DNA of 59,111 nt from Spirochaetales bacterium (GTDB taxonomy: Bacteria; Spirochaetota; Spirochaetia; SZUA-6; RPPD01), in NCBI GenBank assembly GCA_016929065.1, contig JAFGJO010000056.1, forward strand, positions 1 to 59,111. The letters run 5' to 3'. Every line of letters starts with the position of its first letter. Within the stretch, counting starts at the first letter, position 1. A program made the translations under genes and the position numbers. The notes beneath the pieces were generated by a model. The model did no database searches and was not told the DNA's origin. It worked only from the letters and a program-made list of their open reading frames with translations. Positions 1-444 of the stretch are shown here, piece by piece.

Positions 1-1
1 G

Positions 2-86
2 GGAGAGGTGTCCGAGTGGTCGAAGGAGGCGGTCTTGAAAACCGTTGTGGGGCAACTCACCGGGGGTTCGAATCCCTCCCTCTCCG
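2..86 (+). tRNA. tRNA-Ser(UGA)
   Basis: Class II tRNA. The acceptor stem GGAGAGG pairs with CCTCTCC and is followed by discriminator G; no CCA is encoded. The anticodon loop CTTGAAA gives anticodon TGA, which reads UCA and UCG. The variable arm is short and ordinary. It is the first of four serine tRNAs packed into 570 bases with nearly identical acceptor stems, which suggests tandem duplication. Confidence 0.95.
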
Positions 87-285: not shown

Positions 286-444
286 GGAGAGATGCGAGAG
301 CGGTTGAATCGGGCGGTCTCGAAAACCGTTGCCCCGCACTCAACCCATTAGCAAAAGCCACTGATGGCTCAGGGTTATTTTATTTCACCCTGTTGAGTTT
401 ATGCGTTGAGTGCGGGGCCGGGGGTTCGAATCCCCCTCTCTCCG
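286..444 (+). tRNA. tRNA-Ser(CGA) with giant variable arm
   Basis: The acceptor GGAGAGA/TCTCTCC, discriminator G444 and T arm (stem 420-424/432-436, loop TTCGAAT) are normal. The anticodon stem 313-317/325-329 encloses CTCGAAA, so the anticodon is CGA (320-322), reading UCG. The variable region 330-419 is about 90 nt instead of the usual 15-20. A perfect 14-bp stem (GCCCCGCACTCAAC at 331-344 with 405-418) encloses two further hairpins: AGCCA/TGGCT at 356-369 and CAGGGT/ACCCTG at 370-392. The insert is not in the anticodon loop, so it is not a typical tRNA intron. Whether it is processed or kept is unknown. Confidence 0.85.

Follow-up and report, generated by a model that had tools for sequence, protein, structure and literature searches.

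The window analysed here, by which we mean the whole 59,111-nucleotide (nt) stretch of contig JAFGJO010000056.1 from a Spirochaetales bacterium (genome G000, a draft of 3.49 Mb in 69 contigs), carries at positions 286–444 a 159-nt tRNA-Ser(CGA) gene with a giant variable (V) arm, recognized by reading the sequence and with a cloverleaf finder (all window features given here lie on the plus strand). The tRNA body is canonical: an acceptor stem (286–292 paired with 437–443), a D stem, an anticodon stem with the anticodon CGA at 320–322, which reads UCG, and, at 420–444, the T arm (GGGGG-TTCGAAT-CCCCC), the 3′ acceptor strand and the discriminator base G444. The V region (330–419), by contrast, spans 90 nt, versus 16–19 nt in the other serine tRNAs of the window. 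It is closed by a base stem of 14 bp without a mismatch (331–344/405–418), beyond which a C.C mismatch (345/404) is followed by a CAT/ATG continuation (346–348/401–403), and folding predicts two inner hairpins, at 356–369 (356–360/365–369) and 370–392 (370–375/387–392), both in this one species and neither conserved in relatives. With the CAT/ATG continuation, the arm forms the sole inverted repeat of at least 12 nt between positions 200 and 600 (18 nt, 94%). For the whole tRNA, the minimum free energy comes to −79.2 kcal/mol (z = −7.37, with none of 200 shuffles as good), and for the arm by itself to −44.9 (z = −7.85). A preliminary description of this DNA had proposed a normal tRNA-Ser(CGA) body with a V region of ~90 nt and a perfect 14-bp stem enclosing two hairpins, and both proposals hold, in the sequence as well as in the fold.

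Standard gene finders miss the gene. It was called neither by ARAGORN nor by Rfam at the gathering threshold, and a laxer Rfam scan aligned positions 286–443 to the tRNA clan, with the selenocysteine tRNA (tRNA-Sec) model, at 34 bits, below the cut-off of 47. Inside the V arm, the Rfam scan for known RNA families gave only sub-threshold, implausible matches, and a terminator or promoter was looked for there and none was found. Group I introns of bacterial tRNA genes similarly hide their hosts from gene finders (PMC8450103); the spirochaete insert, however, is too short for a ribozyme and lies in the V arm instead of the anticodon loop. Both group I and group II introns were rejected as candidates, with no match to an Rfam intron family and no ribozyme core in an insert of ~90 nt or less.

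Long-armed relatives of the gene are few. Searched with the window gene at the DNA level, 53 of 61 genomes showed a match (its own included, at 100%), and in most of the relatives’ Ser(CGA) genes read with the cloverleaf finder the V region is 16–21 nt. Long arms were found in G002, a member of the same family as G000 (V region of 105 nt in a gene of 174 nt), in G018 (71 nt in 140 nt) and in G003 (50 nt in 119 nt), and scans of 84,980 species and of the phylum added G461, from another class (57 nt in 126 nt). In total, the carriers are five draft, probably metagenome-assembled genomes, from different genera and two classes, with G000, G002, G003 and G018 belonging to one order. All five share the Ser/Arg tRNA–signal recognition particle (SRP) RNA–dnaX neighbourhood of Ser(CGA), with slight changes of order in G461.

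The scans set bounds on this distribution. Among the 84,980 species, a search for long-armed Ser(CGA) gave 13 matches, with a long-armed cloverleaf only in loci L064 (G018) and L075 (G461); L063, L065, L068 and L073 are normal Ser(CGA) genes, and no cloverleaf was obtained from the remaining seven. Two class scans of 395 genomes each, for V regions of 24–84 nt (Ser-CGA) and 79–139 nt (Ser-CGA/UGA), found true cases only in G003, G018, G000 and G002, with the other listed matches of the longer scan beginning in a normal tRNA and overrunning its own T arm, and the phylum scan (24–84 nt) found G461 only. As separate observations, the matches in L063, L065, L068 and L073 (the last on the minus strand, ~2850–2960) extend beyond the normal Ser(CGA) into a second stretch resembling a T arm and 3′ end, at most ~100 nt downstream, which may be a scar of mobile-element integration, and copies resembling tRNA-Ser(UGA), either in tandem or truncated and with the 3′ acceptor strand seemingly absent past the T arm, lie at G246:C1:537209-537464 and G340:C19:8825-8960.

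Among carriers, the base of the stem covaries strongly. We aligned six long genes by hand with the distal arm removed; six are few, and since the alignment was cut to match the stem ends it leans towards structure. In it, the acceptor, D, anticodon and T stems are 100% paired in 6/6 genes (the acceptor stem and T arm being helices 1 and 5), and the V stem, taken as 15 pairs, is paired in 93.3% of cells, with double-sided changes in 10 of the 15 pairs. For the whole structure, none of 500 shuffles reached any observed measure, and slid controls dropped to 35–53% paired. The contrast is plain even between G000 and G002: the tRNA bodies show 0/71 differences and the 5′ strands of the stem 7/15, and the first 14 V-stem pairs are standard in both. 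Because its base thus stays paired while its letters change, the arm is a real, inherited part of these tRNA genes rather than a product of faulty sequencing. That the stem is under selection, one of two options in the preliminary description, is borne out by compensatory changes in five species, and comparison of the same locus in relatives, which it had offered as a check, reveals a stem that persists and covaries and gives no sign of a chimera.

An assembly chimera or a degenerating pseudogene is accordingly the most improbable of the explanations we considered. The carriers are drafts, probably assembled from metagenomes, and the gene escapes standard gene finders, but the same locus recurs with covarying stems in five assemblies from different genera and two classes, the tRNA bodies are intact, to the point of identity between G000 and G002, and the two arms of G003 (below) differ in their loops and so are not one repeat assembled twice.

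Beyond the base stem, constancy ends. The number of arm-closing base pairs before the first interruption is 14 in G000, 13 in G018, 25 in G002 and 10 in both G003 and G461, and past the base stem the length, sequence and hairpin number of the interior are all unconserved among carriers. Two resemblances stand out, namely a CAT(T) following the base stem in G000, G002, G003 and G018, and an identity of the lower stem of 12/14 between G000 and G018 and of 10/14 between G003 and either (shuffle p from 0.00025 to 0.003), which favours a common origin of the arm within the order. Both resemblances (the latter at p 0.00025 for G000 versus G018) could also be taken as signs of an added functional domain, either a protein site that would sequester, localize or regulate the tRNA or a source of small RNA, the more so as hairpins grafted onto V arms can recruit proteins (PMC7590224). 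We nonetheless consider such a domain unlikely: nothing in sequence or hairpin number is conserved past the base stem, unlike a specific binding site, CAT(T) is not clear in G461, and the genome G008 lost the arm or never had it, with a normal V region of 19 nt, and a DnaX tree made by a quick method places it next to G003 with a support of 94. That tree leaves many forks open, and parsimony on it requires four changes of arm state, which implies losses, repeated gains or conversion. Vertical inheritance of the expansion is our best reading.

In G003, Ser(UGA) is long-armed too (V region of 51 nt in a gene of 120 nt), and both long-armed genes of this genome score ~50 bits with RF00005 (cut-off 29). 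The two V arms are identical at 46 of 50 positions, against 13 differences in 71 positions between the bodies, and the genes lie 336 nt apart. Near-identical arms in two different bodies would most simply be explained by gene conversion between the neighbouring genes. They could also be read as two landings of a mobile hairpin (resembling a miniature inverted-repeat transposable element (MITE), an integron attC site or a repetitive extragenic palindromic (REP) element) that entered a dispensable isoacceptor only recently, an idea raised in the preliminary description and encouraged by the near-perfect stem and by the G000 stem happening to fit attC boxes (ACTCAAC...GTTGAGT). We regard this as very unlikely, given that no second copy was found in G000, that other matches in eight genomes were at chance level, that the phages, plasmids and viral contigs searched gave no match, that 5/5 carriers show the same synteny, that covariation of the stem across five species points to age and that the G003 copies are confined to serine tRNAs 336 nt apart. 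As specific candidates, an integron attC site was rejected, the RYYYAAC / GTTRRRY boxes being present in G000 only and missing from the relatives’ arms, and so was a dispersed MITE or REP repeat.

The same genome bears on whether the arm is merely put up with. In the G003 assembly (95% complete), the remaining type II tRNAs are Leu, Tyr, Ser(GCU) and Ser(GGA) only, so that the UCA codons there depend on a long-armed gene. Ser(UGA) thus looks like the sole UCA decoder of G003, with a second copy outside the assembly being possible. Such codons are in regular use: among the serine codons of the window genes, UCA accounts for 25% and UCG for 12%, and UCA/UCG codons come to 36/87 in three reading frames of G003. 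The presence of the arm in this decoder speaks against an arm that is simply put up with because the isoacceptor is redundant, and contradicts the earlier suggestion that the arm is borne only since Ser(UGA) can also read UCG.

Compared with known systems, the genes are closest to class II bacterial tRNA-Ser. They share the 7/5 cloverleaf with intact stems and T-loop residues, a CGA or UGA anticodon, the discriminator G (G73, here G444), a V arm formed as a stem that opens with a G at the usual place, and a position in the same cluster as the relatives’ normal genes. They depart from it in a V region of 50–105 nt (90 nt in the window) versus 16–21 nt, the short length being a usual but non-essential trait, and in closing stems of 10–25 bp with further hairpins in some. 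As the structural features of the class are present, we file the giant-armed genes as a variant of class II tRNA-Ser. tRNA-Sec and allo-tRNAs likewise have a long V arm recognized by seryl-tRNA synthetase (SerRS), and it was the tRNA-Sec model that gave the window gene its sub-threshold 34 bits, whereas the window gene has a normal 7/5 branch (not 8/5 or 9/3), the anticodon CGA in place of UCA and an arm several times longer. Aptamer-tagged tRNAs (PMC7590224) also bear additions to the V arm and are active in translation, although those are engineered and their additions smaller, and the spirochaete arms are natural, larger and found in ordinary serine tRNAs.

As to what becomes of the arm, we give a probability of roughly one half to the reading that the window gene encodes a functional tRNA-Ser in which the class II V arm has expanded and still juts out as a long helix once the tRNA is mature. 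Under this model, the arm would have grown from a hairpin of 5–6 bp to a giant stem-loop in this spirochaete lineage and would pass on with the gene. Selection would keep the proximal 10–25 bp paired, because SerRS reads its shape and because misfolding there would disrupt the cloverleaf, and the distal arm would be nearly free in length and sequence. For SerRS, the shape and position of the V arm matter more than its sequence (review PMC7609411; PMC9561287), so a tRNA with a longer helix on a normal base could still receive serine, and engineered tRNAs with hairpins at the tip of the V arm stay translationally active in E. coli (PMC7590224). From the genes we infer transcription of the tRNA, retention of the arm, charging and function on the ribosome, as well as the conversion in G003 and any benefit that the arm may confer.

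Several points weigh against retention. In translocation, the A-site finger can be struck by a V arm that is rigid (PMC9561287); a compensating change in that finger was looked for, and six of these assemblies yielded no 23S rRNA. All the arms are plausible substrates for double-strand RNases. Nor does SerRS show an adaptation to match, with no insertion tied to long arms in the SerRS sequences compared (one gene at the cut-off per genome). Apart from this question, SerRS falls into two divergent types within one order, one in G003, G008, G018 and G010 and the other in G000, G002, G007, G012, G016 and G006, which suggests replacement or transfer of SerRS; both types occur with long and with normal arms.

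The hindrance to translocation expected of long V arms (PMC9561287) lends some weight to an alternative that we hold as a tentative possibility, in which the arm is an intervening sequence (IVS): an RNase III-like nuclease would cut the helix, the distal part would be degraded and the tRNA would work in two pieces held together by the leftover V stem and the tertiary core, like fragmented 23S rRNAs. IVSs are known in Leptospira, Coxiella and other bacteria, and RNase III removes them without religation (PMC4990558). The 23S rRNA IVSs (of Leptospira, Salmonella and Coxiella) have the anatomy seen here, i.e., complementary ends forming a long closing stem, an interior free to vary and a place in a peripheral arm of a structural RNA, and across our five species the interior lengths differ widely and the closing stem is kept. 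The spirochaete arms differ from them in lying in a tRNA, in being short and in having no encoded S23 protein. Moreover, the helix is interrupted after 10–14 bp in 4/5 species, and 10–14 bp is on the short side for RNase III to cut efficiently. A nicked tRNA would also lie open to exonucleases, and we know of no bacterial tRNA that is processed by V-arm excision, nor did the open-licence papers that made up our literature search contain one. That a double-strand nuclease removes the arm, leaving UCG (and in G003 also UCA) to be decoded by a never-religated two-piece serine tRNA, is possible but doubtful, and between the two fates we lean towards retention.

Upstream of the gene, ARAGORN finds tRNA-Ser(UGA), Ser(GCU) and Arg(GCG), all normal (2–277), and downstream lie tRNA-Ser(GGA) (480–567), the small SRP RNA (587–685) and then dnaX, so that the first 700 bases of the window read Ser(UGA), Ser(GCU), Arg(GCG), Ser(CGA), Ser(GGA), small SRP RNA and dnaX, with Arg(GCG) and Ser(GGA) as the direct neighbours of Ser(CGA). 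The contig starts one base 5′ of tRNA-Ser(UGA) (window 1–86), and an identical tRNA gene ends contig C12 of the same genome (G000:C12:1-85, minus strand); with the same gene at both contig ends, the two contigs probably abut across it. In five other genomes of the order (G001, G013, G020, G022 and G024), no SRP RNA was found and the DNA search gave none or one weak serine-tRNA match; both probably reflect assembly gaps.

The open-licence papers that we searched describe no natural tRNA in bacteria whose V arm is this large. Natural V arms here reach 50–105 nt, one of them in the apparent only UCA decoder of a genome, and, as gene finders overlook such genes, more may be missed. If the arms are retained, the translation machinery tolerates far larger V arms than believed, which would be useful for tRNA engineering; if they are excised, bacteria run split tRNAs.
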